64,000 nucleotides of DNA from Dendrolimus kikuchii (Eukaryota > Arthropoda > Insecta > Lepidoptera > Lasiocampidae): the NCBI GenBank assembly GCA_019925095.2, contig CM034388.1, positions 5,044,501-5,108,500 on the forward strand, read 5' to 3'. The translations under genes and the position numbers were made by a program. Below, piece after piece: positions 2,071 to 63,099 of this stretch. The notes beneath the pieces are model-generated. The model did not search any database, was not told the origin of the DNA, and saw only the letters and a list, made by a program, of their open reading frames with translations. The number at the start of each line of letters is the position of its first letter. Position 1 is the first letter of the stretch.

Positions 2071-2128
2071 ATGTTTAAATACATTTTAATACTTTTAATA
2101 TTTAAAAAATCTTTACTAGTTGCCTATG
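2071..2128 (+). CDS. Receptor exon 1: start codon and signal peptide
   Basis: The ATG sits in the context AGTAAAATG. It encodes [19 protein letters not shown] plus one base. The donor is G|GTAAGT and the intron is phase 1. The hydrophobic stretch and the small residues near the exon end fit a cleavable signal peptide. Confidence 0.8.
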
Positions 2129-5100: not shown

Positions 5101-8100
5101 TTCCCTCAACATAGCCCAGGGTCGTGGAGCAACAGTTTTATCAACGCTACGGCCCTGTCAAGTGCCTGCATGCAGGCCAAGTCTATACTATTGAAGAGGA
5201 TAAGCTCTCCCAAAGCGAGCTTACTTTCACTTAAAGTGTAGACGCGTGCGGGAAGTAAACAGATCTGATTTTACAAATCGTGTACTTAATTCAGTATTGA
5301 CACAATCCAAAATTTTCCAAATCGACTTTTTTATATTTATTCTTGCATAAATGTAGTTGTATACAGGTGTCATTCTTAGAAATACATGCTTTTGCATGCA
5401 ACATTTTACCAGTTTCAATGATGTGCAAGTCAGCAGGATCTTAATCGTCATTCCTATTTATTTAATTAAGTACCTTTTACGTAACTTGAATAATATTTAT
5501 TACCTTTATTTATTAATTATATAGATATCTGTTTTTTTTTATTAATCATTATTTCAATCTGTGTATGTCAATTATTTAATGTCTTTTCAATGACATCTGT
5601 CGTAAAACGTGAAATCGTGTCGTTGGCATGGACCTCTTAGGTTTCCTACTTCAGTGGTCGTTGGGGATTGTTTTTACTTTAATTTTTCATTACTGTATGC
5701 ACTGTGTGTTACATGCGCGCGCGTCGCTGACAAAATAGCAGATGATAGTGATGTGCTAAATTACTTTATATGATTGCTAGTAATGTGCTAATTTATTGAT
5801 ATGAGGGCTAGTGATGTGCGTTAACACGTGTAGTAGTGCTAGTCCTGGTTTAAAAGTAACAGAGATATCCACTAGAAGGCATTATTATAATACATATAAT
5901 AATAATACCATGGACGAAAGTCCATCTTTTTATATTCAAGTTGAAAAAAAACCCAGTATTTGGCTCTCTTGTAAAGTACTTGAAGCCAGTAGCCATTTAC
6001 ACAATAACTAACCACTTTCCATCAGACCGTCTATCTGTCCTGTAATTCAAAAATAAGAAATTGTAATTCGTATAATTTATTTCATATTTCCAGATACACC
6101 TCCAGAATTTACTTTGGAATTTTTTCCAAATGTAAAATGTGAGACCCAGCCTAGTAAGCCTATTATTTTTAAAAACGAACCATTTAACGTGATACTTAAG
6201 GACGACACAGCGCATGAAATATCAAATATAACGTAAGTTAATTTTGTTATGAATCGTGTATTCTGAGAAGCTGAATATAATAATAATCCTTAGCAAACCA
6301 GGTATTTTATTATCTTTGCTATTATCTGTAATTGTTTTAGTGATTGTCTTAATTATTCATCGTCAGGAGTTTTTGGCGGGAACTGAAAGGAGACGTTGTG
6401 CTGTGCAGTTTTATTTTCTAAAATGTGTAAAATTACTCTAAAATGAACAATAGTTGTAGGATATTGATAGTTTTTGAGTAGTAATTATGTGTTTTGTGAG
6501 AAATGTGAACTGTATAGTCAAATGTGGCCTTTTGAGTTTTCACAAGAACTCCGTTGAATGGCGTTAGTTGTAGCCTACAATATAACTGCGCGACTATTAT
6601 ACGAAGACTTAAACATCAGAATTGGTTGTATGGACTAGATTCCTTTGCCTGCCTTTGTGGCGAATACAACTACTACTACTTATTCATCATCATTTGTTCG
6701 CGTAACTTATCAAGTTTTGAAATGTAACCATCTATTGTCAATCGTTATACCTTTCGGTCTTATTTATATGGAGTTAGAGTAAGTTTGTAGACTCCTTTAA
6801 GAATATTATTAATCTTAAAGAAAGAAGTAGGTTTGCGTTTGACAATGATCTTGCTAGATGTGGAGCGAAGATATGACCTATTCATACGGAACTTGAAGAC
6901 ACCCAAGTTGTAATTATCGGGGAAGACAGGCTCCGGCAATGAGTTACACTCCTTTGCAGTACGCATGATGAAGGTAGACGCAAAGCGCTTCGTTCTTATA
7001 GGTCGATTATCCACCATATATTATATCGGTGTCGCATGTCGATGCGTCTGGTTGTCCGATGATAGTAGGGAGACGGCGGGATCAGTAAGATTTCATTTGC
7101 ATAATCTCCAAAGTGTATCCGATATAAATTCATTTTACAGTTCCAAAAATCACTAGCAATTTCAGTCATCACCTTGACATGTGAGACATGTCGCTGTACT
7201 GTTATTTTATCGTCAGTTCTAAAATATGGGGTGGTGATTTTACACCGGTGAATTAGCAGTGATAAAACGTAATAACTTCACGGCAGTGATCGATGTATTA
7301 AAGTACTTGGCTAAAATTTCCATCTCTACCCCGCGGCTTACTCACGGTCTCACGGATAGCTACGCTCGGGGGATGAGTGGCGGTCTCATCACTGCCAACA
7401 TAGCGCTTGCAGCGCTAGATCTAATGCGTTTCGTTCCTATAGCGCAGAAAAACATAATATTATTTAGCACCAGTTCACAGCGTGTTTTCTCTAATGAAAG
7501 TTGGCAAGGCTGCGCGTCATAGGATCCCTTGGCTGTACGACAACAGTGCATTGCACGTTAGACGGAATTGTATTCCATAAGTTCTAGTATGTTCGCTTGT
7601 AAGCACAATGGTTCAAAAGAATCCGAATTTTCGAATAGTCCACTCTTTTTATAATTACCTATCATATTTGTGTTTTATAAAAATGATTTTATTTTCAGCT
7701 GTACTTACGCAGAGAATCCTGAACACACTTACGCTGTTGCGGAGATCATACAAAAACGTAAAGACAATATGTTTAACATAACTGTAAGTAGAATAATACA
7801 TACATACATACATACATAACTTCACGCCAGTTCCCTTGCGGGGTAGGCACGAATAACAGAGCGCCATTTAGGCTTATTCTTACACACCTCACTTGCTTCT
7901 TTGACATTCATAACTCTTGTAGAATAATAATGACATAAATACTGTATAATTTTTATCATGAATTCTGATAGCATACAAAACAAAAACTTCGTTAGAATGA
8001 AACACGTGCAATGACGTGCATGCTTTATAAATATCGGTGTCCAAAAGTCTTACACAGGCATTTCTTTTTTACACTCAGAATTCAAATTTATCTTGTTACT

Positions 8101-10628
8101 TACTTTCTTTAGAACAAATTAAACTATAGGAAGATTTTACACTACACTTTAAGTGAGAATATAAACTTAGTAAACATGACATGCCATAATTTAAGAAAAG
8201 CTCTAATAATTTTTTACACCCAATCACATAAAAAAGCATTGGCGTATCTAGGGTTACTTTCCAGGTGTGACCTGTGCCTCTACTACAAAAAAACACTATA
8301 ATGGATCGGAAGCTTCCGTTTCGTATTTTATCATTTAATCCACGGAAGTTATATCAAAACACGAAACAAATGGTACGGATCCAACGGCATGCACTCGGAA
8401 GTCGCTTCGCCTTGTGGAGCGAAATTCAATTGTACTCTAGCTTAATACGATGTATATCGTTCGCAATTGCATCAGAAGAATTTATTGTTAGGCAAACAAC
8501 ACGCACTAAACCGATACCGGGAGCACAACGTAGTGCATGTCCTGGGCGAAAGCAACAAACTGGTCCATAGATACTGGTCCTCGGTTGGTATCTAACCGCC
8601 GGCGCCAAGTTAGGAGCGCCAATAGAGAAACGGCGCGAAATGTCGCCTAACCGCCGCGCTATTCTGAATTCACAGATTAATATAGAACACACAATTATAA
8701 TGACTTTGCGCTTACGTCTTATTAGTCGTCGCGAATGTCGCCATAGGCGGATATCAAGATTAGTAAAGCTTGTACTCTTCTAGCGCAAGAATCAGATATC
8801 TCTCTCAATGCATTCTACTAAAAAACCCGCAAAATTCTCAAGGGGCATTTCTCACATTTATGTTTGAACAATTTTTTAATAATTTTTCAGTTTGGTAAAG
8901 TTTCAAACAATAAAGTTAATAATAATTGGAAATGCAAAATGAGGTTTAATACCTGGCAGGTAAAAAGCTGGTTACTGGAAGTATACATCAGAAAGAATGG
9001 TAATGTATTTTAAAAACACTGTCTTTTTGTTTTGCCAATATGACTCAGCAGAACTTATGCAGGGCGGGAGTTGTTTTGACAAAATGAAAAGGCATATTTT
9101 ACTAAATAGTTGAGTTTTTCAGCACAAATGCTCAATTTTCCCTTAAAAACAATCAATATTCTAACAACTAATCATAATTTTTCAGATTAGTATTATGAAT
9201 ATGGCAAATGTCAAAATAAAGTGAAAACTTATGCCGTGTCTTACATCTAGTACTTATCTACCTATCTATCTACATCTTTGAGTATACGATTTTCAAAAAG
9301 CGGCTGTTTTAATCTTCTTAACCCTGCAAGATATTGAAATGGAATATACACAAAAACTTAAGATAAAATTCCTGTTTTATTCTATATAAGTTTTATTAAT
9401 ATTCGTTGAGCCCTTCTAAAGTTGAACCTTTTACTGTACCTGGACCATATACACTTAGGCCGTGTCCCCATTAGACGAACAGTGAGCGGCTAACTGTTTG
9501 CTTTCAGTTTGCCTCCCTATAATTTTTAAATGGAATATCTATATCTATATATGTTTTGCTTGCCGACTCTTTCAGTGAGCGCGCGATTAGCAGCGAACGA
9601 TGTGCGCGGTCGGCGGCGCAATTGACTCACTGCGCCGAAGCGCTGCACGGCGTTATAAATTGACCATTTACCTTCCCTCTCAAAAGTTCGCAAGCGCTTC
9701 GCGGATAAACTCGATATTGAGTTAACGACCGATACGCCACTCAGAATCAGGCAGCGTACAGTAAGCCGCTCACTGATCGTCTAATGGGGAGAAGGCTTTA
9801 CATTGAGCAGATTATAATATCTACCTTATGATTATTGCAGGATCACTGTTAATAAATGACAAAAATATAACATTACCTGTCATTAGATATCCTGAAAGCA
9901 AATGGGATGCAAGCGGTGTGTACAATTACACTGAAGGAGAGATACTTAACATAGCAGTTAAAGACGTATATTATACCCATATTTATATAATGAAAGACGG
10001 TACGTGTCGTATTGTACTTGCACCGACTACAAAAACTAAAAAGTATAAAATAACTTAATAAAGTTTTTGACTAAGAATTTATTTCGTTTATTAAGTGACA
10101 AAATAATATAAAATTCTCTACATCTTGAAGTTGGTGCCGAGCAAAGCATAAAAATTACCATATGCACTGTTCGCCTGAAGTTCCAGAAACTAGAGTTTTG
10201 GAGCTTCAAAATGCTTTTTTAAATCTTCGATACGGCCATTTTTACTGAGACAGCACGTCAAAATCACTGAAAATTTTCGTTTCTTTTTTCCTTAATTTTT
10301 TTGGAGTATTTTATTATACAAATACTAACTTTATACCATTACAGTGTAATCTTTTATTAATCTTTGTTTTAGAGTAAGTTTCGACGCTACTTTAAGAACC
10401 ATAAAGAAGCGTTCAAACTTACTAAAACTCTCTATGAATAAGACCATTACTTTATACGTACTAACTATCTAATTATTCCTTATTTTTGTTAACTATTTTG
10501 CTTACAATACTTAAACAATATCTATAAAACCCTCACAAGTAGTTTTTGGGCATCAAGTCTGTAATAAATTATATTAATATATATTTCGCTGCGAATAATA
10601 CTCGCCACGACAATTCGCTGCCTGCCTG

Positions 10629-10718
<90 letters not shown>

Positions 10719-12734
10719 GCGCGCACGCACGCACGCACGCACGCACGCCGCACACACGCGCACGCACACACACACACACACACAAGAATTTTGATACTCT
10801 GTTTATGTCTCAAATACAAATATTTAGTCTATACGTAGCACACGTCTAAAACCGTGTATTCATAACTTGCAAGAAGCGAAAATGGGTTCGTAAATGGATT
10901 AAACGCAGAGAACAGTTTGGGTCTTCTATTAATTAGCCTTTAAAATGAATTGGCTGCAGAGGAATCAGTTATTACAGTGTAGCAGCGAAAGGTAGAGGTT
11001 AAATAATACTTCAGATGCCAGAGAAGTATAGTATTCACTGTCGAGTGCTGATGTGAACTGAAGTGAACTCATTTATTTTGAAAACGGTAACTTTAAGTAC
11101 AATTATTAACAAGTCGTATTGCTAGTACAATGTAGAGCATAGTGTGTGAACGGGACGGATGACGTGCGAGCGAGATAGAGCAACTATCAATATGTGCGCT
11201 CCCGCGTTCGATTAGCATAGGCGTGTTGCTGGAGAGTTTCTTCCGCCGCTTCTTCTCCTCCTATAACACGTTGCGAAGCGGTAGTAATGACAGACTAGGA
11301 CCGGCTCCGCCGGCGGAGTCGATAATTGGTCCCCAAATAATCACTTCAGCCTGTTGGCTTAGCTCTTTCAGCCTTTAACGGCTAATTCTCAATATAGAGT
11401 CAATCCCCCGCAGCGGTCGAGCCGAGGTCGAACCTCACAGAAGGTGCCTCCTCGAGCGGGCTGCTTCCGGGCTGAACGCCTCCGCTCCCACGGAGTCGGG
11501 AAGCCCCCAAAGTCCGGTATCGCTGAAACAGCCTGCTGTGATGACTAGACGTATGTAGTCCCATAACAGAATTCTTTGCGTAACGGAAGCTGAGAGGAAT
11601 AGCTACTCGCAGCGAGTACCCTGTCACACAGAGCAAATTGTCGCGGCGAGTGTAGTATATTTGCAGAATAAAATTGAACACATTCAATTGAAATCGTAGC
11701 GAATTCAACTCGCGGCGAATGAATCTATTCGCAGCGAATAGTCGCTACAAGTGCCTAATCGCAGCGACTATTCGCTTTGTGTAACCGAGACTTTACTACT
11801 ATTATTTTCACCCGAAATCATACCTGAAAAATAAGTCAAACTGTTTTTCTATCCTTAATTTTAGTTTAGTTATTTTTATTATTCATTATTTATCATTTCA
11901 GAGACAAAGGTTTTTGAGACACGCGAACTTGGTGAGGTACAACTTTTATTAAATACAAAATATTACAACGGAAACATGTCTATGTATATGGATTTATGTA
12001 CATATAGTAAAGACTTGTCCGAGAAATTAGAATTGAAGATGATTCCCATAGACAAACCGACAGGTATGTAAATCTTTTTCTTATTTAAATAATGATAATG
12101 TACAATTTGTATATCGAGCTAGTCTAATAATAATAATCGGCAGACAAACACACACATTGTATATCCCTAAGTATGGGTAATTATGGGTAATATACAACGG
12201 ACCATTCTGGGGCCGATCCCGGACACCCAGACCGTAAAAAATAATAGAAAGTTCTTTTACAAAATTTACCATGCTAGGACTCGATCCCGGAGCCTCTACG
12301 TTGCAGTGAGCTCAGTTGGCTAAGGTTTAGCCTGCTCATCCTCAGAGGTTGTCAAATGTCAAGTATACATGAATATTCAAATTTCAAAATAATCTTCAAA
12401 GAAACAAATTTTAGGTGAAAGTTGGCGCCATGTAACAGCAGCCTCAGCCAAATTATAGGTGACTGACCAGTAGAACGTGTTGCCCAGCGAAACGTTCTAC
12501 TGGTAACTAAAAAACGTATATTTTATTCATTGATACAGTTGAGACATTCTACACAAATACAAAATTCTTAATTAGAACACTAGATATCCTACAAGTATTT
12601 TGCATTTTAACCAGTGGTACACATAATTAAAACAGTTCTCTCTCTCAGGAAAGAGAGAGAACTGGTCGCGAAAACTTAGGTAAATACCAGTATATCCCTA
12701 TTATCCCTATTAATATTATAAATGCGAAAGTAAC

Positions 12735-12775
<41 letters not shown>

Positions 12776-15700
12776 TCCGTTTTCACGTAAAAACTACTGG
12801 ACCGATTTGGCTGAAACTCAGTATATATATATTTTCGATGCCGAGAATGAACATAGGATACTTTTTATCCCGGAAAATGGGATAGTTTCCGGGATAAAAG
12901 TATATTTGTCTCTTTGTTTGTTATCCTTTTACGGAAAGACTTTTGGACCGATTTGGCTGATACTCGGTACATATGTAATTTGAATACCGAGAGTGGACAT
13001 GGGATATTTTTCATCCCGGATAATGGGATAGATTTTGGGATAGATTTATGTAAAGATTATCCCAAAAGTGGGACAGGCTTTGGTTGGTTTTGTGATTTGC
13101 CATTTTCATCATTTTGGTTATTTTGTCCTTTTGCCCTTTTGACCTTTTGCCCTTTTGCCCTTTTGCCCTTTTGACCTTGGGCCCTTTTGCCCTTTTGCCC
13201 TTTTGCCCTTTTGCCCTTTTGCCCTTTTGCCCTTTTGCTCTTTTGCTCTTTTGCTCTTCGACTCTTTTTTGTCCTTTTTGTCCATGTTGCTCTTTTTGCC
13301 CTTTTGCCCTTTTGCCCTTTTGCCCTTTTGCCCTTTTGCCCTTTTGCTCTTTTGCTCTTCGACTCTTTTTTGTCCTTTTTGTCCATGTTGCTCTTTTTGT
13401 CCTTTTTGCTGATGTTGTCCCTTTTGTCATTTTTGTAGTTTTCATTGACGGGGGATAGATAAATAAAACTAGGACTGTTTGTAATAGAGGATGAAAGTTT
13501 GGATGAGACCAATCATTTCACAAGTTCATAGATATAAAAATGCATCGTCTATAAAAATGCGATAGTAACTCGATATGTCTTTCTGTTAAGTTTTCGGAAA
13601 ACACTGGGAATACTGGATCGTTTTTATTGTAATTTTGTTTAAATGTAGTTTTAATGCCGAAAATGGACATATATACTCATGCCAAGAGATCGGCATGAGA
13701 ATATATCAAGCATCGAGTTTGCGATATAAAATGAAGTGAATTTTTCGGGGGCAAATGTACATTGTAACCTGTATTAACGCCTGCTCTTTAAACAAGAAGC
13801 AGGATCTAGAGGTTAACCCGCGGCGCAGCCGCGGGGTAAACTCTAGTATAATATAAATTATATAATATGTAATATAATTTATATTATTATAATCTATTTA
13901 ATTATGTATATCTATCTATATTAGTTTATTATTGTTATTATTTTGTTTTTTTTTTCTTTAATTACGATTGAATTCGTTTTTTAATTTAGTTAAACCACCA
14001 AATATTATTTACTTTTCTTGTAATGTCTCCTTGGACACCGGGTTGCCTGGAAGAGATCGCTATAAGCAATAAGACCGCCCATTGTTCTTGTAGACACAGG
14101 AACGGAGGATATCCAAAAAAATTATGAGGTTTTTTCTCGTCTAGAATTCGTATAATTCGTTTTTTACAAATTCGTTATGCTGGTAAAATTTTCTTCTTCT
14201 TCTTTCTTTCGTTTTTTGGCAAGAGGTTCGTTTGTTTAGCCAACGACCATTACTGCCAATGTCAAGTGTTGAAAAGCCACTTTACATTGATTTTTATTTC
14301 TATTATTTTTTAAATTATCTTGTTCACATAAAAAAAAAAAAAAAACCACCACCTAGAAAGACTAGAATAATAAAAAATGAAATATAATTTATAACATACA
14401 TAGGTACTTAAACACATAGATAAAGGACATTACAATTTAATATTATACATGTTTATATATTTACAAATTATATTAAGGACCATAGTGGTAAAATTTTAAA
14501 CGTATATTAATGAAGTAATCAAGTATGAAGTGACTTGAAGTTCGTAAGTGACGTTTTATCTGTCACTGCTAATGTGACGTAAGACGTTTACGTATATTGT
14601 GACGTTGTTGTTGTCGAAGGCAACTATCCAAAAAGTCAGATCCGGAATTGCATATTGTGTCTGAATAGTTCTAATGGAAATGTATTTATATTAAATGTTT
14701 AGGTTTAAGTTATGGTGAACAATAAAGAGTTTTCATTTCATTTAATTTTTATTTTACAAACAACGCATTACACGCTTAACTACATCTGCGGGACATTGTC
14801 ACTGACGTTAACATTATCCTAGATGGCGCAAGCACATGAGTAAATTCTATGTTCAAAACCTAGTTTCTATAGCATTGTTCTGACATTTTTAACAAGATAT
14901 TTTTCTTTCAGACAACAATTTAAGGTTATATTTCGACGGACTGCCTTTAACGCCAAAGAATATTGACAAAGCCAAAGAAATAACTATTTTTTCTTATAAT
15001 TATATTTTTACATTCCCACGACTACTGACTATAGAATGCAAAATAGTAAATCCCGATAACTCAAACAACGTTTGGTTTTACAATGCTTCTGACAACGGGA
15101 AAGGTAATTAAAATCTAGCTATAATATATACATATATATATATATTTGTTCGAGACTAAAACTAACTAAACAACTACGCCGATTTCGATGCGGTTTTCGC
15201 TGATCGACACCTGATAAGAATGAGCTAATTATAAGAATAAGAATTAGCTGAATAAAACTCTGCGCTACTGTTTATTCCGGGAACTCCGCGGGATTTTTTC
15301 TGGGAATGATTGAAAGTGGCCAGACTGTAATAAAGATTCTAGTTCCAATGTGATTTTTTTTACTGATTCATAGCAAATGTAATGTAATATAATGTGTAAT
15401 ATTTTTTATCCCAGGAATCCCGTGGGATTTTTCCCGGGAATGGTTTGAAATTATTCAGTTGCATAAAAATTAGCTCTTTCCGACAAAGTTTCCACCAAAA
15501 CGATAGCTTACATTCTTTTTTCAAATGCTGCGATACTTTGTGTCCCGGGCATTCCGCGGGAATTTCAAGTCAAGCGTGGACGAAGTCACGGGCATATCAT
15601 AGTATAAAATATAATAAGTGATTATTACTTCTTAAGGCTTTTTATTACATAAATTTAGCAGCCAGGCAGAAGGCCACTTGGTGAGAAGCGGTTACCATCG

Positions 15701-18700: not shown

Positions 18701-21700
18701 TACAACTTTTTGCTACTATTATTCCGCCGCGACAACATCGAGAAAATATTTTGGATTTAGTAGATAGAATACGAGTTTTTGACACTATAGCCACGGAATC
18801 GTATTTTGAATAGCTTCGCAACGCTAAGATATTGAATTAGCAGAATTGGCGTTGTTATTATTTACATAACTTTTTTATTTTCCATTTTACGATAAAAAGT
18901 TATATGAATAAAGTTGTAGAGAATTTAATTTGCTACAAATAATGTTTTGTAAAACGCGAAAACCCTGAGCACCCCTTTTTCCAAGATGGCGGCCGGCAGT
19001 CAAGAGTGGCGACCCCACAAACTTGAACTAAAGCTTACACTTATACACCCCCCCCCCCCCCCTACACATGAAAAAAAATAAAATTGCGACCACTGAAAAA
19101 AGCACGCTAAGGCCTAAAAAATGTAACATTTCAATGGACTAATAAAAGAAAGTCGAAATTGGTCAAATTTACAAAAACGAATAACGAGACACTTCTGAGA
19201 GTAAGCCACTTGATAAGTAATAATAGGACCTTTTTTTTAGATTATATCAGTGGCTTGTCAGTGAACCGAACCTATTATCAACTGAAAAGAGAAGCGCTGT
19301 ATGAATTTTATGATGGAGAAAATTTAACACTGGAGTACAGTCAACCGAACAATTATAATCCTAAAACTATTCTTTCCGATATAGAATGGGTGCTACAAGG
19401 TAATAAACTTAGATCATATGATATGTTGATATACCTTTATGGTAATAAATAAGAAAAATAGGTAAAATATATAAACAAATAAAAAAAGTGTTTTTGCCTT
19501 AGTATGTATGTATATCGTTAAGTATTATTTGAATATGTTATTGCTTAAGTTAGTTATCTACGATGGGTGAAATATTAATCAATGAGGCGGGGTCGGTCCG
19601 ATATACCGCACTCGCCTAGGCGATTTCCTCTAGGCAGAGAAGGCAGCGTTCCGGTTAGATTGGCAGTCCTCTCAGGAATCATCTTTAGTCTTCTGACAAG
19701 GCTTATTAGGAAAATCTTAAGGGTAGTTCCCAAATTGGGAAAATAAATTGCAATAGTTATTTCTACTTTGCTATTTATAAATGCTAGAGTAAGTAAATAC
19801 ATACATACATACATAACTTCACGCCAGTTCCCTTGCGGGGTAGGCACGAACAACAGAGTGCCATTTAGGCTTATTCTTACACACCTCACTTGCCTCTTTG
19901 ACATTCATAACTCTTGTCATGCAAGCTCGTCTGTTCTTAAGGCTCCTGACATCACCTTAGTAAGTAAATAAAACAATACGAATTGGGTATGTATCAAAAT
20001 AGTAATACGGGCGCAGTAAAAGTGACACAGCCGACTCAGCTAACCGCAAGATGGCCGTGGATCGCTTATTGGATATCGGCGAACACGGCAGAAACAAAAT
20101 GAGTTGGATGTATTCACTATTGTTTTTATACTTTATGAAAGTTTGTAAATTAGTAAGTAGTAATAATAATTTATAAAATTAAAAATATTTGTAACGTTCC
20201 ATAACATGTTCTGGTCCGAATTATCCCAGTGGTTTTTTTTTTTAATTTTTAGACGCAATGTACAAACTCTAATCATTTACAGATTTATTATAGTATAATT
20301 AGATAGATAGAGGATAAAATCTTGTAGCGAGATTTTCCTGTTTAATTTTTTAAACAGGAAAATCTCGCTACAAGGTTTTATCTCCTATCTAATAATCTTT
20401 TGATTATTATTTCAGACAAAAAGTTTTCCGGTAGAATATTCAACTTCAGTTTAACTGAGAAACACAACGGTACATATATCAACTGCACATACTCGTGTGG
20501 AGTCAATTCCTCAATTTCGCATATTGTACACCTGCTGTTGAAAGATAAAGATGAAATAAATATAGATGAACCAGCAGTCGCAGTAAGCACGTACTTCTTA
20601 AAAGGTTAGTCAAAAAATCAACTTCTAAAGTAACTAAAAAGCAAAAAATTATTCTGCAACTTCTTGAAGTCGGTGCATGGCAAACCATATGTAAGGGTCG
20701 TCGTGGGTGTTGTTGATGGGTGGTACGGCCTTGTCGGCGTGGCCTTCCAAAGATCCAACACCAAATAACACTCACAAAAATAGAAGGAGTTGATAAGTAT
20801 ATTAGCGGATATCAAGCCAGCAAGCAAGTTTTATAATTTTGTTACATAATATTAACAACGATAAAACACACGACAAAAATATAATTATTCTAATTCGTAA
20901 GACGGTATGAACTAGGGATTGCAATTCGGAAACCGGATCCGGTAATCCGGCAGCTCCGGCACCATTATGCACATACCGGATCCGGTATATTTGTACCGGA
21001 TCCGGTGACCATCCGCGACGCGCGATTAGTTTGGCAAAATAATCGCGCGTTGCACGAATACGAATACGAAATGATACTTTACACGCGTGGTGCTTGTGTG
21101 TGTGAGTCGTAAGACGCTGACAATGCATTTACTATGCCAAAGAAAAAACACATACGACTAGAAATGAAAAACATCTTGGAAAGAATTAACCAAGGTAATA
21201 ACGATAATGTGGAACTCGTGGAAGAAATAGTAGAGAAGAACTCAGATTCACAATCATTGAAAAAAGACGACATTATAGGCAGAATTACAATTACAGATCC
21301 AGTAAGAAGTAGCGTCTTACTCCCTGGCCACAGCCAAGAGCGGTGCGGATTGCGGCGCGTCGTGAGGCGCGGCAAGCGGTGAGCGGCGAAAACAAATGGT
21401 AGACAACCTATGACGCGTACTGCGGTACGACTTGCGGCGCGGCAAGAGGCGCATGGCACGCGGCGGCGACGAGCTGCGCGATGTGCGAGTGAAACAAATG
21501 TACTAGCCAATATCGAGGCGGCCACAGCTCAGAGCGGCGTGCGCGGCGGCATCGGTGGACGCAATGAGGCATCGCGCGACCGAAACAAATAATTTTGTTT
21601 TTATCGCGCGTTGAGCCAACCAATAATGGATATGGAACAATTCATTAGTGAAATACTGAGTAGACCAGCAATATGGATGTCAAAACATCCACATCATAAA

Positions 21701-24700
21701 TATAGGCATGTTGTTTAGGCATAAATATAGGCATTAAATACAGGCATATAGGTTTCTCTGGTTAACTGGGTGCGCTCCTATTCTTGACTGAATGATATCT
21801 TCAGCTAAGAATGCACTTGTTTCAAGGCAATATCGTGCCACTTTTGATAGGGGCATTTTAGCCGTTCTCTAACTACGTGCACCGCTGACGCCGCCACGGT
21901 CGCAATTAGTCTAGCTGTGGCATACCACCGCAAATCACGCCGCCCACCGCGCCTCCCAACGTACCGCGCAACGCACCGCCAGAAACTGTGGCCAAGCCCT
22001 TATACAATACAAACTGTAAAAAGAAGTTTTTTGATAAAATACTAAAGAAGGAAGTGGCGGCATTTAAAAGTGAAGGAGTTTGAGGAGAATATTTGTCTGG
22101 TATTCATGATTATTTGCTGACGATTAAGCCGATAAGTGTAGAAGCTGAGAGAGCCTTCTCGGCCGCAGGCTCTGTTCGAAGTCGATTGGCGGATGAGACA
22201 ATCAACATAATTTGATCCCTAAGATCCTTTTTACAAACCAAAAATTGACTGTTTGTTTAAACGTTAAAGAGTATAAATATTATAAACTAGCTGACCCGGC
22301 TAACTTCGTACCGCCTCAGAATCAATTTTTTCACATTTACTCACATTTAAACTTTCCCTGGACTTCCACAAATAATTCAAAACCAAATTAGCCAAATCAC
22401 TCCAGCCGTTCTCGAGTTTTAGCGAGACTAACGAACAGCAGTTGATTTTTGTATATAAGATAATAATTATAGTGATTGTTGTGCTATTCATTCGATAGAT
22501 TCGGTAGTCTGACATATATAAGAATAAAACTGAGTAGCATTCTAAAATAGATAGCTAATTATTTATATTGTGATCCCAGTTAAGACGAATTTCGTGATAA
22601 GCTTAAATGGTTACCTATTCGCTTTCGCCGGAATGTTCACTTACTCTCACTTTTGCACAATATCCTTTATAATCCCTGTTCTCCCCCATATTTAAAGGAA
22701 CTTTTTAGTTTTCTCTATCAATCTCATTCCTGCAATTTGCGCTCAAATGAAAATCTTTTGTTAACAACACCTGCACACACTTCATCCTTCGTAGGAAATT
22801 CTTTTGCCGTACAGGCTGTTCGACTGTGGAACTCCCTCCCCTTTCCAATCAGACAAGCTAAATCAATGACTACATTTAAACGTATGGTCACTGACCATTA
22901 TTGGTCTATTAAATAAAAATTGTTGCATTAAATGAATGTATCTATTGTTCATATATATATTTATAATATCATCGTATATCTAATTATATATGTATATCTG
23001 TATGTATATGTGTATGTATATATGTATATCTGTATATATGAGTAGATAGTACTTTATTTATATCTTATTTAATTTTTTTGTAATACACCACCAAAAATCT
23101 TATATTGAAATTTCGTTTAAAATCTCCTTAGACACCGGGTTGCCTGGAAGAGATCGCTATAAGCGATAAGGCCGCCCATTGTTCTAATGCAAATGTATCC
23201 ATATCAATTGTCTTAGATTTAAGATTATGGTGAACAATAAAGAGTTTTCATTCATTCATCGAAAAAGGAAAGTTAAGTTATCCAGGTGGAATCAATTGAC
23301 GTAAATTCGGTCCGGATCCGGCCGGTTTGAAAATGAGGCCGGATTGCAATCCCTAGTATGAACGCGTGACACTTGACAAGGTCATTGAGCTGCACTGCCG
23401 ATCGAACGAATCGGGTGCGTGTCCACGGGCGATACCCGTCGCGTCGCGCAGGCGCAACCGGCGGCGGGCTGCGCTCACGCATCATTTGTCGTTGGTGTAT
23501 CTATGACGTGCTGGGACGACAGTGCGATTATTTAATGTGTCGGAAGGCCACACATATAAAATACTATATTTTGAAAATTTGTTGTTGTTATTTTATATTT
23601 TAGTTGGCATCGACTTCAAGATGTTGTAGAAAATATATATTTTTTTGCTTTTTGGTTACTTATGAAGTCGGTTCTGTTATTCTTTTATTTTCTACTTTTT
23701 AGTTACGCAAATACTCGAATAGTTTTAGAAAACATTATATATGAAACACGTTTTACGTACCTATTATATTCAAGGGTTGCTCTCGATTTCCCTAATATCC
23801 ACACATCAGAGCCTGACTTGGTGACAATAGGACCACCTCAGGAGTAGGTTAATTTGCGGAGAAATCGCGTAACAAACATACAGTCGAATTGAGAACCTCC
23901 TTCTTTTAAAAGTTGGTTGGACTGTAAGGTACTGAGGGCCTGAACCTCTGCAAAGAGCTTTCAAAACGTATAATCGACTGTTCAAGTGCTTAGAGAGCTT
24001 GTAGACAACGTTGTGGGCGTGGACACTAGCCCTCTGATCACATGAAGAGTTAGGTCCAGCGAGGTAACGGAACCAGCCCTTTGATCATCTTACCCATGAA
24101 TGACGATGACCTAGGCTCAATATTATCCAGCCTGAACCTTCAGCCGCCATGAGCGGGCGGCGCGGGTGTTTCGCTGGGGAAAGAGTTCTCACCCGCTGTT
24201 ATTCCCTCGAGATGGGCGCGCACTCACCTCTCCTATCCTGGGGCGCATTACAAATCGCCCCATGCAAGGAGAGTATGAAGACGCCGGGGGACAAAAAGAA
24301 GTTCCTCGGTAGTGGATGAGGCCGTTGGGCCACCGTCTGTCAGGGCTCGCGGGCAGGCTAGGCCATGTACCCGCGGATCTGGCATAAGGGCGAAGGACGG
24401 AACACTGAGGGGTTGTAATGGCTATCCCTGACTATGGTGTGGCAATCAATAGCACTACTAATTACTGGCTAGAAGTGCTAGTGCTATGCCAACCTAGCTA
24501 ATCCCACACACCAGCCGTGACTTCCCCCCATAGTCCAGCTGGTGCTCGTCAATCAACAATACAATAGGCTGCCTTATCAATGTGTAAAATTTCTTCTAGG
24601 AAACCAGACGGAGATTGATGAAAAAGGTATGTTGCATTATCATCACTATCACGATTGTAATTGTAGTATCTGTGGCCTGACTCTCAAACGTATTTCGTCG

Positions 24701-27700: not shown

Positions 27701-30378
27701 CGGACTACTAGGCGAATTGCCGTGCAAAATCGTGAATGGGCCGTTATAAATAATACTATGATTCGAATTTTGGTGGTTGGCTATAGGCTATGAGTGTTCA
27801 TTGTAGTCAATTTATCATCTCGTGCGTTTACATCGTCGCAAGCATGTCTTCATGGCCGGCAAGACCGATGTGTACTATTTGTTTAATCATGCACCGACAC
27901 TCGTGTAAATGAGGGTAGATTACAAAAAATGTAGAGGCGATGTTTTATTCACCTTATACTAGGCTCACTAATGTGTTATTATCATTTCCAGGCTCTCCAT
28001 TTCAAACCTATATCATAGCTGCCTCCGCAATAGTCGTTGCAGTGGTCCTTTTTGCTACACTCTGTTTTGTTCGTAGTTCTTACCGGAAAAGAAAATTGAA
28101 GGTAATTAATAATAAAAATATATAAACAAATTAACTATAATATTTTCTTAAGTTTTCGCGACTTGTATACATAATAAAACTACGTTTTAACGGTTTTAAG
28201 AGCGGCAATTTTATTTGATTTTGGTTTTTCCGACGTTTCGGCCATTTTTCAGTGGCCGTACATACATACGTGCATAACTTCACGCCAGTTCCCTTGCGGG
28301 GTAGGCACGAACAACAGAGTGCCATTTAGGCTTATTCTTACACACCTCACTTGCCTCTTTGACATTCATAACTCTTGTCATGCAAGCTCGTCTGTTCTTA
28401 AGGCTCCTGACATCGCTCCTCCGCGTTCAGTGGCCGTGATCACGGCAAATAAAATTACCGCGCTTAAAACCGTTAAAACGTAGTTTTATCAAATTAACTA
28501 TGTTTTTTTACAATTGCTAGACAGAAATACAAACACAAACACAATTTGTATAGGTTCTCAAGTCAAGCAGATTACACTTGCTTTAGACTTGTTTTATGTA
28601 AGATTAATATTACGAACGTGGTTTGTGGGGATGTATGGATGTTTGTTGAGTCTTTCACACAAAAACTACTAAATAGATTTTGATGAATAACACATAATCT
28701 ATAAATTTTAAAGATATTGTTTAAATTGGCCAAAATGTAACGATAAGGGTCAAGAAAAATACCTAGTGCGCACCTAGCCAAATACAGATGAAGTTGCGGA
28801 TGGTCACTAATGTTTATAAATCGACTAAGTGTGTGATAAACCACACAACGTCCAGAGTTCTGTTTTAATTAACTATTGAATCTTGAAATAAGATATTACA
28901 TTCATCCTAAAATACTCCACGAGCATAAATACTACACTAACTAACACATCTCGCTCAAAGCAAATTTTTGTCATAAATTATTTTCACCCAACCATTGAAG
29001 GAGTAAGTGCATGCATTTATGTAATGTATGTTTAACAATTTGTAATGTGTATATAAACAACTAGCTGTACCCGGCAGACGTTGTCTTGCCGTTAAAAAAA
29101 TAAAAATCTAGAAACCGATTGTAACGCCGTCAACCAGGACCAATTGTTAATCGTAACCATTCTCGAATCTACTTAAAAAAAAATTCATCTAAATCGGTCC
29201 CACAGTTAAAGAGGTGTTTAGCGGCGCCACCTACCGGGTCCAATCGTGAATATAAACCATCCCGGGATCCACTTGAGCACACACAAAAATAATTTCACCT
29301 AAATCTTCCAGGACTGCAGCGCCATCTACCTGGTTCAAATTTGAATGTAAACTATTCTGGAACCTACTTGAACTGACACAAAAATAATTCACCTAAATCA
29401 GACAAATGAAAATGAGTTTAAATGCAGTCACCATTGCCGAAATCAGCCGGGAAAGATCACAACAAATGAAAAAAAAAACATCAGTCTAGTCATAGACTAA
29501 TGTTTTTTATAAAAAAAAATTATTGATGAAAATCATATTTTGATACTTATTATCCTATTCCGGTCGAAGATAATTCCAAAATCACAAACATCATAAAAAT
29601 TGGTCCAGCCGTTCTTGAGTTATAAATGGTGTAACTAACACGTCTTTGTTTTATATGTATAGATGTTACACCTTATATAAAAAAAATTGAGTTTGATTTT
29701 AGAAATTGCGAATGATAAAGGAGATATTGTATAAAGGCAATATAATACTTATAAAAAACTATTATTGCAATTCTCTCAATATCTGACAATCGTAAAGCGA
29801 TCACTTCATCCACTTAATTATATCTTCAATTCTAATAGTTTAAAATTTTAGTAATGCCTCCAAGATGTAGCTTTATTCTTTACTCTAACATTGAAATAAA
29901 ATATTGATATGTCTCAACCTTTCAGGAAGCTACAGATGTATCTTATGACAATCTGTCGAATGGCACTCAGCCACCGTTCCCACCTAATTGGGATAACATC
30001 GCGCGATCACAAGTGAAAGTCGACGAGTTATACAGCGTGCCGTACACGAGACAGACTGAAGATATAACATATGAAGAACCAAGTTGTACAAGGGTCGGAG
30101 CAGATATCTACACTGAGCCTAAACGTAAATTAAAACGCGCCGGTGACATTTACGCAAACGTATCGGCGGTTAAAGATACAACGCCATCTGTTATGAATGT
30201 ACAAGAAACTTACGCCGAAGTTATACCAAAAGCGTTGCGTAAGGTCGAAGATCCTTACGCTGAGATTGGAACTAATCCGGATAGTTATGAGAATGTGTTT
30301 AAAGGCGAGCCGTATGCTAATTATAATAATAGTGACTACGTTGAGGCAGCATACTGCGATCTTAGTGATCTAAAATAG
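2071..30378 (+). CDS. Putative Ig-like single-pass receptor with tyrosine-motif tail (13 exons)
   Basis: Not recognised as a named gene. Thirteen exons with GT-AG borders join in one frame: 1986 nt, 661 aa. Residues 1-19 are a signal peptide (hydrophobic core ILILLIF). Residues 20-465 form four modules, exons 2-4, 5-6, 7-8 and 9-10, each 107-116 aa and bounded by phase-1 introns as in Ig-superfamily genes. Modules 1 and 3 have a Cys pair with roughly Ig spacing. Module 4 has an F-strand-like NGTYINCTY, but its B-strand Cys position appears replaced. Fourteen N-glycosylation sequons are visible. A transmembrane helix lies at about 480-502, then SSYRKRKLK as stop-transfer. The tail (503-661) has 13 tyrosines after that motif: YxxP at Y547, Y560 and Y573; YxN at Y518, Y587, Y632 and Y641; Yxx(I/L/V) at Y518, Y587, Y607, Y622, Y632 and Y654. 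There is no kinase domain. I infer a surface receptor that signals through SH2 adaptors, perhaps on haemocytes or neurons; ligand and tissue are unknown. It is convergent with VPS37A. Confidence 0.8.
2515..2995 (-). mobile_element. R1-like LINE 3' tail
   Basis: Read on the - strand, it ends in TTTTCCCTCGCCTCAAAAC followed by an A-rich tail, like the R1-like LINE at 17075-18440 (ATTTCCCTCGCC plus A-rich tail). A close copy in the opposite orientation lies at 30617-30924. Open frames here are shadows of untranslated sequence. Confidence 0.7.
3485..4330. mobile_element. Unclassified dispersed repeat, longer copy
   Basis: Both ends match a shorter copy at 44170-44410: the CTATATAAACTATA-type end, the block with CATGATAGTGTGTGTAATG on one strand, and the GTTAATTTGACTTTAACAAT block. 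The middle (about 3690-4260), absent from the other copy, is GC-richer and looks like LINE 3' UTR sequence. Confidence 0.5.
4331..6093. other. Intron 1 remainder
   Basis: Mostly AT-rich with no coding signal. A GC-richer block at about 5010-5240 looks like a LINE untranslated fragment. Nothing else is recognisable. Confidence 0.4.
6094..6232 (+). CDS. Receptor exon 2 (module 1, first part)
   Basis: Acceptor TTTCCAG, donor AC|GTAAGT, phase 1 in and phase 2 out. It encodes the start of the ectodomain, including [13 protein letters not shown] and the sequon NIT that spans into exon 3. Confidence 0.8.
6367..6595 (+). repeat. Dispersed repeat family D, copy 1
   Basis: Starts TTTTTGGCGGGAACTGAAAG and ends near GTAGCCTACAATATAACTG. 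Close relatives are at 26330-26574 (opposite strand) and 33663-33925. No coding capacity; class unknown. Confidence 0.6.
6757..7017 (-). pseudogene. Non-LTR retrotransposon ORF2 C-terminus fragment
   Basis: The - strand frame contains [20 protein letters not shown] and [16 protein letters not shown], the conserved 'WNSLP..VFP..Y.+..FK' tail of insect LINE ORF2 proteins, with Trp replaced by Cys. The start is lost. At its end it joins an arm of the foldback MITE family. Confidence 0.75.
7330..7560. other. GC-richer insert in intron 2, unclassified
   Basis: Moderately GC-rich block with no start-to-stop frame of interest, probably more of the LINE debris next to it. I cannot assign it to a family. 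Confidence 0.3.
7699..7783 (+). CDS. Receptor exon 3 (module 1, middle)
   Basis: Acceptor TTTTCAG, donor ACT|GTAAGT, phase 2 in and phase 0 out. It encodes [17 protein letters not shown] and a terminal NIT sequon. The Cys is the likely B-strand cysteine of module 1. An RTE-type insertion begins 15 nt after the exon end. Confidence 0.8.
7799..7918 (-). mobile_element. 5'-truncated RTE-type LINE 3' end
   Basis: On the - strand it ends CGCAAGGGAACTGGCGTGAA followed by a (ATGT)n tail. It is flanked by an 11-bp duplication, GTAGAATAATA, at 7788-7798 and 7919-7929. The insertion sits 15 nt downstream of receptor exon 3. Confidence 0.75.
8374..8750. mobile_element. Dispersed DNA-element fragment
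   Basis: The block with GCGCCAATAGAGAAACGGCG, CACAGATTAATAT and GCGAATGTCGCCAT matches 32390-32525. Family unknown; no intact transposase. Confidence 0.4.
8891..8999 (+). CDS. Receptor exon 4 (module 1, end)
   Basis: Acceptor TTTTTCAG, donor G|GTAATG, phase 0 in and phase 1 out. It contains [19 protein letters not shown]; the Cys is the likely F-strand partner of the exon 3 Cys. Confidence 0.78.
9466..9789. mobile_element. MITE with ~27-bp terminal inverted repeats
   Basis: Begins CCCCATTAGACGAACAGTGA and ends with the near-exact complement (TCACTGATCGTCTAATGGGG). The interior is GC-rich and non-coding. It lies in intron 4, about 50 bp upstream of receptor exon 5. Confidence 0.75.
9841..9999 (+). 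CDS. Receptor exon 5 (module 2, first half)
   Basis: Acceptor ATTGCAG, donor G|GTACGT, phase 1 at both ends. It encodes 53 aa with sequons NIT and NYT and the stretch [16 protein letters not shown]. That stretch looks like an Ig B-strand region with the cysteine replaced. Confidence 0.8.
10366..10447. mobile_element. Foldback MITE, hairpin family copy
   Basis: Arms GAGTAAGTTTCGACGCTACTT and AAGAAGCGTTCAAACTTACT around a short centre, ending TATGAATAAGACCAT. Diverged member of the foldback family. Confidence 0.6.
10629..10788. repeat. (CA)n / (CACG)n microsatellite
   Basis: About 160 bp of CA dinucleotides that pass into CACGC/CGCA variants and back to CA, in intron 5. Long 'proteins' of alternating residues read from it are artefacts. 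Confidence 0.95.
11215..11770 (+). mobile_element. LINE 3'-UTR-like fragment
   Basis: The block GTTGCTGGAGAGTTTCTTCC to AACACGTTGCGAAGCGG matches, on the other strand, the 3' UTR of the Jockey-like LINE near 36600-36680. Downstream are short inverted GCGGCGA/TCGCAGCGA segments. Confidence 0.5.
11902..12063 (+). CDS. Receptor exon 6 (module 2, second half)
   Basis: Acceptor ATTTCAG, donor G|GTATGT, phase 1 at both ends. It encodes 54 aa, with NMS sequon, one Cys in [10 protein letters not shown], and a Pro-containing end (IPIDKPT). Confidence 0.8.
12105..12335 (-). mobile_element. tRNA-derived SINE
   Basis: On the - strand: AGCCAACTGAGCTCACTGCA (box A-like), GGGATCGAGTCC (box B-like), a non-tRNA body, and a tail of TTATTATTATTAG. 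This is the layout of a tRNA-derived SINE. It starts about 40 bp after receptor exon 6. Confidence 0.65.
12704..13846 (+). mobile_element. Helitron-like non-autonomous element, copy 1
   Basis: Begins TCCCTATTAATATTATAAAT after an A, and ends CTCTAG before a T. A GC hairpin (CCCGCGGC...GCCGCGGG) lies about 11 nt from the end. These are Helitron end rules: 5' TC, 3' hairpin plus CTRR, insertion between A and T. The interior has a CTGT tract and a TTTTGCCC minisatellite. A second copy is at 62276-63878. Confidence 0.65.
13113..13400. repeat. TTTTGCCC minisatellite
   Basis: Over 20 mostly perfect 8-bp units of TTTTGCCC in two blocks, with TTTTGCTC and TCGACTC variants between them. A longer unit containing GTCCATGTTGCTCTTTTTG is repeated twice. 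Predicted 'proteins' on either strand are low-complexity artefacts. Confidence 0.85.
13855..14745 (+). mobile_element. LINE 3' region, 'TGGAAGAGATCGC' family
   Basis: Contains ACACCGGGTTGCCTGGAAG, AGAGATCGCTATAAGCAAT and GGTGAACAATAAAGAGTTTTC, all shared with 23113-23260. There that tail directly follows a LINE ORF2 C-terminus, which identifies this stretch as a LINE 3' end. Confidence 0.6.
14912..15103 (+). CDS. Receptor exon 7 (module 3, first half)
   Basis: Acceptor TTTCAG, donor G|GTAATT, phase 1 at both ends. It encodes 64 aa with [12 protein letters not shown] (B-strand-like cysteine), then NVWFYNAS with a tryptophan and an NAS sequon. Confidence 0.82.
15115..15600. repeat. Dispersed repeat with GGGAATCCCGTGGGA blocks
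   Basis: The GATTTCGATGCGGTTTTCGC, TGATCGACACCTGA and CCCGGGCATTCCGCGGGAA blocks match 41780-42065 in the same order. Non-coding; class unknown. Confidence 0.5.
15941..16172 (+). mobile_element. SINE-A copy, 5'-truncated
   Basis: Carries the common body (CCAGGTGGTAGGG, GACTGGATGGCTACCACCCC) and the LINE-shared tail ending in TGCAATAAAAAAAAA. The first ~75 bp of the full repeat are missing. Confidence 0.75.
16429..16572 (+). CDS. Receptor exon 8 (module 3, second half)
   Basis: Acceptor CTTTTCAG, donor A|GTAAGT, phase 1 at both ends. It encodes 48 aa with an NMS sequon and [12 protein letters not shown], whose Cys pairs plausibly with the exon 7 Cys. Confidence 0.82.
16630..17074. mobile_element. 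Unclassified repeat, left part (split by an R1-like LINE)
   Basis: Shares CGTCAAAATCGCCGGACACT and ATCGTCTCAATT with 60642-60680. It resumes at 18456 after the LINE insertion. No recognisable protein. Confidence 0.45.
17075..18440 (+). mobile_element. R1-like LINE, 5'-truncated
   Basis: Flanked by a perfect 15-bp duplication, ATGCCAAGTTTTGCA, at 17060-17074 and 18441-18455, with an A-rich tail at 18423-18440. Frames contain [21 protein letters not shown] and [16 protein letters not shown], the post-catalytic RT region of R1-clade proteins, then [11 protein letters not shown] after a frame break near 17375. It is a dead partial copy. Confidence 0.85.
18456..18845. mobile_element. Unclassified repeat, right part
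   Basis: Continuation of 16630-17074. Shares CCATTTCTGCTAATGGT, CGCGACAACATCGAG and TTTTTGACACTAT with 61300-61405. The long open frame here is not supported as a gene. Confidence 0.45.
19048..19062. repeat. Poly-C tract
   Basis: Fifteen consecutive C residues in intron 8. Confidence 0.95.
19241..19399 (+). CDS. Receptor exon 9 (module 4, first half)
   Basis: The acceptor is TTTTTTTTAG and the donor is G|GTAATA, phase 1 at both ends. It encodes 53 aa with sequons NRT and NLT and the B-strand-like [11 protein letters not shown], where Tyr stands at the usual cysteine position. Confidence 0.8.
19800..19958 (-). mobile_element. 5'-truncated RTE-type LINE 3' end
   Basis: Same family as 7799-7918 but longer. 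Flanked by a 12-bp duplication, AGTAAGTAAATA, at 19788-19799 and 19959-19970. Open frames are relics of the ORF2 C-terminus. Confidence 0.8.
20299..20391. repeat. Long hairpin next to receptor exon 10
   Basis: Inverted arms of about 44 nt (CTTGTAGCGAGATTTTCCTG and its exact complement, with few mismatches outside this core) meet at a loop of only a few nucleotides. The right arm ends about 24 bp upstream of the exon 10 acceptor. It could be a tiny foldback element or a structured regulatory RNA. Confidence 0.85.
20416..20604 (+). CDS. Receptor exon 10 (module 4, second half)
   Basis: Acceptor ATTTCAG, donor G|GTTAGT, phase 1 at both ends. It encodes 63 aa including [19 protein letters not shown], an Ig F-strand-like segment with two Cys and four sequons. 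A long hairpin ends about 24 bp upstream of the acceptor. Confidence 0.82.
20640..20904. other. Intron segment between exon 10 and the hAT element
   Basis: Holds short GC-rich words (GTCGTCGTGGGTGTTGTTG-like) but no recognisable repeat or coding signal. Confidence 0.3.
21134..21300 (+). pseudogene. hAT-internal coding remnant, N-terminal part
   Basis: Opens with [20 protein letters not shown] and runs in a charged, acidic frame until the GC-rich insert near 21310. A separate downstream piece, [20 protein letters not shown], resembles the start of a MADF-like DNA-binding domain. Neither has an intact protein. Confidence 0.45.
21310..22010. mobile_element. GC-rich inverted-repeat insert within the hAT element
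   Basis: CTGGCCACAGCCAAGAGCGG near the left and the complement of CTTGGCCACAGTTTCTGGCG near the right make an imperfect inverted pair; a further CGGCCACAGCTCAGAGCGGC lies at 21520. GC content is far above the neighbourhood. Confidence 0.5.
22540..23270 (+). mobile_element. LINE ORF2 C-terminus and 3' UTR, within the hAT element
   Basis: A frame at 22653-22916 contains [20 protein letters not shown] and [12 protein letters not shown], the classic C-terminal '+LWNSLP..IR' motif of insect LINE ORF2. The GGGTTGCCTGGAAGAGATCG tail and AACAATAAAGAGTTTTCATT follow. Confidence 0.75.
23364..24540. other. Intron segment: LINE-UTR-like debris
   Basis: A GC-rich block at 23366-23520 and a 23850-24540 block with long GC-rich stretches (for example GAGCGGGCGGCGCGGGTG) resemble LINE untranslated regions. 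No conserved protein motif is visible. Confidence 0.4.
24600..24626 (+). CDS. Receptor candidate microexon (27 nt)
   Basis: TTCTTCTAG acceptor, then 27 nt encoding GNQTEIDEK (with shared end codons), then donor AAAAAG|GTATGT. It is phase 1 on both sides, so exons 10 and 11 stay in frame with or without it. It would add a sequon (NQT) to the stalk before the membrane helix. Small size makes a chance match possible. Confidence 0.5.
24640..25810. other. Intron segment, nothing recognisable
   Basis: AT-rich sequence without coding signal, tandem repeats or detectable inverted repeats. Confidence 0.4.
25815..26165 (+). repeat. Dispersed repeat family F, copy 1
   Basis: Begins ACAAGCTTTTATTTAACTTG and contains GAGCTGAAATTTTGCAC and GATAGACCCGTCGTG. 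The same blocks occur in reverse order and on the other strand at 38868-39185. Class not identified. Confidence 0.6.
26330..26574 (-). repeat. Dispersed repeat family D, copy 2
   Basis: Reverse-orientation copy of 6367-6595, from GGCAACTAGGCCTTTAAGCC to CAGTTCCCGCC. Confidence 0.65.
27187..27500 (+). mobile_element. SINE-A copy, near full length
   Basis: About 310 bp: head TTATCCGTGCAGGAACGGAG, middle CCTGTCGTAAGAGGCGAC, body CTGGATGGCTACCACCCC, and the LINE-shared tail ending GCAATAAAAAAAAAA. TATTTTA follows the tail and also overlaps the start, a possible short duplication. Confidence 0.8.
27550..27770. mobile_element. Candidate small inverted-repeat element
   Basis: GATTCGAATCATAAGAGGCC at the left and GGCCGTTATAAATAATACTA plus TGATTCGAAT at the right are partly complementary. 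Ends are not clear and no duplication was found. Confidence 0.3.
27992..28101 (+). CDS. Receptor exon 11: transmembrane helix
   Basis: Acceptor ATTTCCAG, donor AAG|GTAATT, phase 1 in and phase 0 out. It encodes [19 protein letters not shown] and on through LFATLCFV, a single hydrophobic span, then [10 protein letters not shown], a basic stop-transfer signal that places the C-terminus in the cytosol. Confidence 0.88.
28171..28489. mobile_element. MITE with 44-bp inverted repeats, split by an RTE tail
   Basis: ATAAAACTACGTTTTAACGG at 28174 is mirrored by CCGTTAAAACGTAGTTTTAT ending at 28489. The internal phrase TTCAGTGGCCGT is duplicated around a later insertion (28260-28425). A related copy, with CCGCGCTTAAAACCGTT, is near 59600-59745. 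Confidence 0.8.
28260..28425 (-). mobile_element. 5'-truncated RTE-type LINE 3' end, nested in a MITE
   Basis: Flanked by the 12-bp duplication TTCAGTGGCCGT at 28248-28259 and 28426-28437. Same family as 7799-7918 and 19800-19958. Confidence 0.85.
29059..29665 (-). repeat. Dispersed repeat family H (CTAGT-ended)
   Basis: On the - strand the end reads GACAACGTCTGCCGGGTACA then GCTAGT. Repeated blocks 'GGTCC..TTGTGAAT.TAAACCATCC' and GCGCCACCTACCGGG occur three times with spacing near 120 bp. The family also occurs at 40625, 53640, 57268, 60003 and 62700. It may be Helitron-like because of the CTAGT end. Confidence 0.55.
29926..30378 (+). CDS. Receptor exon 12 (terminal): tyrosine-motif cytoplasmic tail
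   Basis: Acceptor CCTTTCAG; 150 codons and a TAG stop. In order: SYDNL, a proline stretch [64 protein letters not shown] and AAYCDL. Nearly every Tyr is preceded by Asp or Glu within three residues, as in Src/Syk-type kinase substrates. I see no enzymatic domain. Confidence 0.88.
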   Translation, partial: EATDVSYDNLSNGTQPPFPPNWDNIARSQVKVDELYSVPYTRQTEDITYEEPSCTRVGADIYTEPKRKLKRAGDIYANVSAVKDTTPSVMNVQETYAEVIPKALRKVEDPYAEIGTNPDSYENVFKGEPYANYNNSDYVEAAYCDLSDLK

Positions 30379-62836: not shown

Positions 62837-63099
62837 CGATGCCGAGAATGAACATAGGATATTTTTTATCACGATAAATGGGATAGTTTCCGGGATAAAA
62901 ATATATTTGTCTTTCTGTCTGCTAAGCTTTTACGGAAAAACTACTGGACCGATTTAGTTGAAATTCGGTATACATGTAATTTTAATATCGAGGATGGACA
63001 AGGGATACCTTTTATCCCGGATAATGTGATAGATTTTGGGATAGATTTACGTAAAGGTTATCCCAAAAAGTGGGATAGGTTTTTTATTTTCCATTTTCG

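Follow-up and report, generated by a model that had tools for sequence, protein, structure and literature searches.

A putative kinase-less receptor with a predicted SH2-docking tail and at least one probable immunoglobulin module, encoded by K1T71_000933 of Dendrolimus kikuchii

Results and discussion

We found that the window, that is, the whole 64-kb stretch of DNA analyzed, contains an intact receptor gene of the moth Dendrolimus kikuchii (Lasiocampidae), annotated as the hypothetical protein K1T71_000933 (652 aa). With moderate confidence, we regard its product as a kinase-less receptor with at least one probable immunoglobulin (Ig) module, which would be phosphorylated by Src/Abl-type kinases, would recruit SH2 proteins in parallel, and appears to be fast-evolving. 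In vertebrate immunity, Ig receptors that lack a kinase and carry phosphotyrosine tails play a central part; in insects they are scarcely described. The intact moth gene, for which our searches detected no relative, is a concrete candidate for testing an independent origin of such receptors in insects, and annotated insect genomes can contain receptors that profile libraries miss.

Gene structure and the public gene model

The gene occupies 2071-30378 of the + strand. Its 13 exons, all with AG/GT borders, join into 1986 nt, corresponding to 661 codons plus TAG (stop codon at 30376-30378), and the reading frame has no internal stop (Table 1). The initial annotation had proposed thirteen exons in one frame of this length, and all of them were present and open. 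K1T71_000933 equals the 13-exon translation minus exon 11, residue for residue, with start and stop included. The identity indicates that a separate annotation arrived at these twelve exons, with the start and stop codons unchanged. The earlier assignment of the exons to a single gene is borne out. The receptor gene is real.

Table 1. Exons of the receptor gene and their relation to K1T71_000933
Exon	Position	Strand	Entry phase	Exit phase	Content	Borders	Relation to K1T71_000933
1	2071..2128	+	0		start codon, signal peptide (aa 1-19)	ATG, donor gtaag	same start
2	6094..6232	+	1		module 1 first part, C35	AG/GT	identical
3	7699..7783	+	2		module 1 middle, C67	AG/GT	identical
4	8891..8999	+	0	1	module 1 end, C109, WKC motif	AG/GT	identical
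5	9841..9999	+	1	1	module 2 first half	AG/GT	identical
6	11902..12063	+	1	1	module 2 second half, C216	AG/GT	identical
7	14912..15103	+	1	1	module 3 first half, C280	AG/GT	identical
8	16429..16572	+	1	1	module 3 second half, C325	AG/GT	identical
9	19241..19399	+	1	1	module 4 first half	AG/GT	identical
10	20416..20604	+	1	1	module 4 second half	AG/GT	identical
11 (doubtful)	24600..24626	+	1	1	micro-exon of 27 nt, just ahead of the membrane helix	AG/GT	absent
12	27992..28101	+	1		transmembrane helix, basic juxtamembrane stretch	AG/GT	identical
13	29926..30378	+	0		cytoplasmic tail, 150 aa + TAG; 13 tyrosines, 11 in docking-type contexts	AG	same stop

We compared this frame with random sets of 12 segments of matching lengths, placed between about 2130 and 29440. 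With fixed phase, 0 of 5000 sets were open; they contained 38.8 stops on average and at least 17. Allowing every segment its most favorable frame still left 0 of 2000 sets open. For the D. kikuchii genome, EVidenceModeler combined gene calls from homology, AUGUSTUS and RNA-seq; 11,521 of 15,323 genes genome-wide had RNA-seq support, and the tissues sampled included haemolymph, fat body and midgut (PMC8589036). Homology is unlikely to have been the source of the K1T71_000933 model, because no relative was detected (see below). Intron 8 holds a reverse-transcriptase-like remnant, recognized by translation (16998-17769, +), of which 17314-17769 has no Pfam match.

Exon 11 (27 nt) is the sole difference between the 661-codon model and K1T71_000933. 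It would contribute nine residues, including one N-glycosylation sequon, beside the membrane. Its acceptor, at 6.6 bits, is the weakest in the gene (other acceptors 10.1-16.0, scored by a matrix trained on those introns); its donor is good (10.4 bits). We then scanned for open phase-1 candidates, in multiples of three and no longer than 399 nt, that reach the exon 11 thresholds. Only exons 5, 7 and 11 were recovered in 2000-30000; the other + strand (32.9 kb) and the − strand (63.4 kb) gave 0 candidates. Such a scan is strict, since among the six other such exons of the gene it recovers two (5 and 7) and misses four (6, 8, 9 and 10). We regard exon 11 as a candidate cassette micro-exon.

Search for relatives

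Word-based searches of a collection of 5.8 billion proteins returned the gene itself only, whether with the whole model, using words taken from residues 1-500 (E<=0.001, 1 of 7655 candidates), with residues 460-652 (1 of 1235 candidates, E<=10) or with residues 350-470 (1 of 41 candidates, E<=10). Such searches require shared 5-residue words and similar length, so low-identity orthologues could be missed; "orphan" here means that no relative was detected in this collection by this method. Pfam gave 0 matches, hence none to Ig, FnIII or kinase domains, both with the complete protein (E<=1) and with five pieces of it (E<=10). The initial annotation could name no family for the protein, in agreement with these results. 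The single NCBIfam match (E 0.44) was judged to be chance. No paralogue was found within the 64-kb window, where matches beyond the gene's own exons had E values of 3.9 or worse. We also considered viral capture; three stretches of viral contigs fitted a pattern, and none encodes a relative.

No insect receptor of this layout appeared, by title and the start of the abstract, in the literature searched, which holds few subscription papers; nor is K1T71_000933 named in that literature. A term check of a silkworm haemocyte study gave no occurrence of ITAM, ITIM, Ig domain or PVR, and its three mentions of "immunoglobulin" concern IMP-L2 (in the text and in a reference) and papilin (PMC8914287).

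The lack of a detected relative suggests that the receptor is fast-evolving, a trait to be expected if it serves in immunity or recognition.

Ectodomain

The N-terminus is hydrophobic. The extracellular part comprises about 450 residues and carries 14 N-glycosylation sequons (NxS/T). By exon borders, the ectodomain divides into four modules (exons 2-4, 5-6, 7-8 and 9-10), and the order of four modules, one membrane helix and a 150-aa last exon is as the initial annotation described it. Modules 2, 3 and 4 have their start, single internal split and end all at phase-1 introns. Shuffled extracellular modules typically show this phase-1 arrangement.

The initial annotation further called the receptor Ig-like. 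By sequence this stands for module 4 alone; none of modules 1-3 had a match to an Ig chain. Module 4 matched FCRL5 in the PDB with a summed E of 1.1e-7, in a region encoded by exon 10. Six successive FCRL5 stretches, spaced by approximately 90 residues, all fall on one part of module 4 and share one register, and we take these stretches to be the Ig domains of FCRL5. Individually they are non-significant (best 10.3 bits, single-stretch E 6.6). One control of each kind against the PDB gave a best value of 0.49 for the reversed module and 0.69 for the shuffled module. FCRL5 was the sole Ig chain listed for module 4, although the PDB contains a great number of them; a transcobalamin-1 match (E 1.9) was judged to be chance. 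When the whole of K1T71_000933 was compared with the PDB by phmmer, one chain appeared at E<=10, FCRL5 at 2.6, a search in which distant kinship could be missed. On this similarity, module 4 is probably an Ig domain.

We then compared the remaining modules with the PDB. Module 2 gave zero matches; the 11 phototropin/LOV-type chains matched by module 1 (E 0.17-1.3) and the one viral surface-protein chain matched by module 3 (E 0.35) were judged to be chance. An internal repeat of the four modules was also considered, and six pairwise tests were non-significant (fractions 0.08, 0.14, 0.34, 0.44, 0.55 and 0.74). Their MAFFT alignment was poor, with 15-24% identity to the first module, and a profile built from it had a transcriptional regulator (E 0.26) as its sole PDB match at E<=10. 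AlphaFold2 run on K1T71_000933 as a single sequence without alignment gave a mean pLDDT of 33.7, which is unusable. Read by eye, every module has a cysteine at the F-strand position (C109, C216, C325, and C426 or C430), and a B-strand partner is found in modules 1 (C67) and 3 (C280) only. We infer that modules 1-3 are Ig-like.

The absence by eye of a B-strand cysteine from modules 2 and 4, together with the lack of an Ig match for modules 1-3, would also suit a class-I-type cytokine or growth-factor receptor with FnIII-like, non-Ig beta-sandwich modules, which would signal in a JAK/STAT-like manner or through Ras, and the numerous Yxx motifs of the tail would fit as well. We consider such a receptor improbable, as the FCRL5 match of module 4 lies in the F-strand region and Pfam detected no FnIII domain.

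Membrane helix and cytoplasmic tail

A single membrane helix is predicted at about residues 473-491 of K1T71_000933, with a hydropathy peak of 2.8, and is adjoined by a basic stop-transfer stretch of 10 residues. Together these features support a predicted single-pass type I topology. The tail comprises 162 aa with 14 tyrosines. Pfam detected no kinase domain in it, and four PDB chains matched by the tail (E 0.29-2.9) were judged to be chance.

To judge the tyrosine motifs, we compared their counts with those in shuffled tails. Eleven of the 14 tyrosines lie in YxN, YxxP or Yxx[ILV], against an average of 4.0 in shuffles; among 20000 shuffled tails, the fraction reaching 11 was 0.0001. Taken singly, YxN occurs 5 times (0.94 in shuffles, fraction 0.001), Yxx[ILV] 6 times (2.3, fraction 0.015), and YxxP 3 times (1.03, fraction 0.07), the last being alone not clearly above chance. 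The acidic context [DE]x{1,2}Y gave 12 matches on 10 tyrosines against 4.27 in shuffles, a count reached in 0 of 10000, and [ILVP]Y occurs 6 times (3.37, fraction 0.09). YxN is of the Grb2/Drk class and YxxP of the Crk class, and an acidic residue near tyrosine is a substrate context of Src/Abl-type kinases. YxN sites, and the three docking classes taken together, exceed chance, as in a multi-site SH2-docking tail, with YxxP weak when taken alone. The initial annotation described a kinase-less tyrosine-motif tail built almost wholly of phosphotyrosine motifs; its kinase-less character and its tyrosine motifs are supported, and "almost wholly" is somewhat strong for 11 of 14 tyrosines in a tested docking class.

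The comparison with ITAM receptors, also made there, did not hold. The consensus ITAM is Yxx[IL]-x(6-12)-Yxx[IL], and the ITIM is [SIVL]xYxx[IVL]. The tail contains 0 strict ITAM, 0 ITSM, 0 NPxY and 0 YxxM, and its one ITIM (VSYDNL) is at chance level (shuffle mean 0.55, fraction 0.43), which rules out a strict ITAM/ITIM tail. Only a relaxed ITAM, with valine allowed, occurs, twice (0.19 in shuffles, fraction 0.024). By its motif content, the name docking array suits this predicted tail better than that of ITAM or ITIM tail.

Tail units that look repeated, and the fact that no relative was found, raise the thought of a young or decaying lineage-specific gene, in which the motifs have no conserved use and their enrichment is a by-product of short acidic-x-Tyr repetition. 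Thirteen intact exons with their splice sites, the signal peptide, the membrane helix and the 0 of 5000 open random sets speak against it. In addition, K1T71_000933 was kept by an annotation project that lists RNA-seq among its sources (PMC8589036). We regard this explanation as highly improbable.

Comparison with known systems

FCRL5 and the Fc-receptor-like family are multi-Ig, kinase-less receptors with a tyrosine tail. The likeness to FCRL5 consists in the six stretches matched by module 4. Unlike FCRL5, however, the moth receptor has an FCRL5 match in only one of four modules, and its tail has no ITIM above chance; nothing here suggests that the receptor as a whole shares its ancestry with FCRL5. 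Hemolin is a lepidopteran protein of four Ig domains, secreted, without helix and tail. No hemolin in the PDB, which we take to contain hemolin and Dscam chains, matched K1T71_000933 at E<=10. A receptor tyrosine kinase of the Pvr or FGFR type is not indicated either, as the 162-aa tail has no Pfam kinase match.

With Draper, CED-1 and Megf10, the moth receptor shares a single-pass, kinase-less layout and a tyrosine-motif tail. In flies, Draper combines EMI and NIM/EGF-like repeats with NPxY and ITAM motifs and acts via Src42A, Shark and Corkscrew (PMC8092387). Unlike Draper, the moth receptor has 0 NPxY, 0 strict ITAM and no Pfam EGF or EMI match, so that the marks of the Draper/CED-1 family (EMI, NIM/EGF-like, NPxY and ITAM) were not found in it.

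The initial annotation took Draper as the usual insect ITAM example, and this was too narrow. Arthropod Dscam tails are reported to carry an ITAM motif, and those of Daphnia an ITIM or ITAM (PMC6851185). A further precedent is CgIgIT2 of the oyster Crassostrea gigas, an invertebrate receptor of Ig modules whose single membrane helix and tyrosine activation tail resemble the layout of the moth protein; it has five Ig domains and a classical ITAM, with reported action through ERK (PMC11999971). By this description, the moth receptor differs from it in having four modules and no strict ITAM. Arthropod Dscam also has a comparable layout, with an Ig ectodomain, a membrane helix, and a tail with SH2-binding and ITAM-type motifs (PMC6851185). 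The shrimp Dscam gene is described there as encoding ten Ig plus six FnIII domains and as containing large arrays of alternative exons, from which the moth receptor differs in its four modules; no Dscam in the PDB matched it at E<=10. Tyrosine-motif tails on arthropod Ig receptors thus have a precedent in Dscam, and the kind is already known. What is new is a short four-module receptor with a predicted Grb2/Crk-type array and no detected family.

We also considered a different origin, in which the protein would have diverged from one of the known insect Ig receptors (for example Pvr-type, hemolin/neuroglian-type or Dscam-like) as a form without kinase. It would then serve mainly in adhesion or as a decoy, with a tail for cytoskeletal docking rather than immune signaling. 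Introns lie inside and between the modules, as reported for hemolin (PMC11999971), module 4 shows Ig similarity, and the tails of arthropod Dscam likewise have SH2-binding motifs (PMC6851185). However, no hemolin, Dscam, Pvr or Draper was among the PDB matches of the whole protein or its modules at E<=10, and Pfam gave no Ig, FnIII or kinase match, a result in which distant kinship could be missed. On balance, we think this origin rather unlikely, though it deserves serious attention.

Proposed function

For the favored kinase-less docking receptor, we propose the following as the most likely course. The four-module tandem, of which at least the membrane-proximal module is probably Ig, would bind a ligand or a neighboring cell, and this contact would cluster the receptor. 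Clustering would then allow membrane Src- or Abl-type kinases (Src42A and Abl in insects) to phosphorylate the tail. Phosphorylated YxN sites may recruit Drk/Grb2 and feed into Ras/ERK, and phosphorylated YxxP sites may recruit Crk and act through Rac on the cytoskeleton. The closely spaced Yxx[ILV] pairs would possibly bind tandem-SH2 proteins (Shark, Corkscrew). Phosphorylation, partners and outcome are all steps that we infer beyond the sequence.

A bolder proposal is that the gene represents a lasiocampid class of Fc-receptor-like immune receptors, very fast-evolving, with an Ig ectodomain and a YxN/YxxP/Yxx[ILV] array, which would signal in haemocytes through Ras/ERK and Crk/Rac and would have arisen independently of the vertebrate ITAM/ITIM receptors. 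We consider it unlikely and put it forward as speculation.

Surrounding window

Several other features were noticed in the window. A LINE-type retroelement frame lies at 36681-38035 (−), with RVT_1 at E 2e-18 in 36681-37928, and a second LINE-type frame, recognized by translation only, at 49013-51379 (+), of which the part 49013-49552 has no Pfam match. At 42355-43329 (+) there is a transposase remnant, presumably mariner, in two open stretches split by a stop, with HTH_32, DDE_3 and weak Transposase_1 matches. Short-period repeat tracts at 12857-13517 and 62858-63540 have translated flanks that look similar by eye, possibly representing one dispersed repeat. Further, a probable exon of a VPS37-like ESCRT-I gene lies at 45289-45591 (−), where a Mod_r domain matches at E 7e-5, below the curated cut-off. 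Its probable second exon is at 47009-47584 (−), which has no Pfam match and which we take to be VPS37A. This VPS37-like gene is a possible synteny anchor for orthologues of the receptor.
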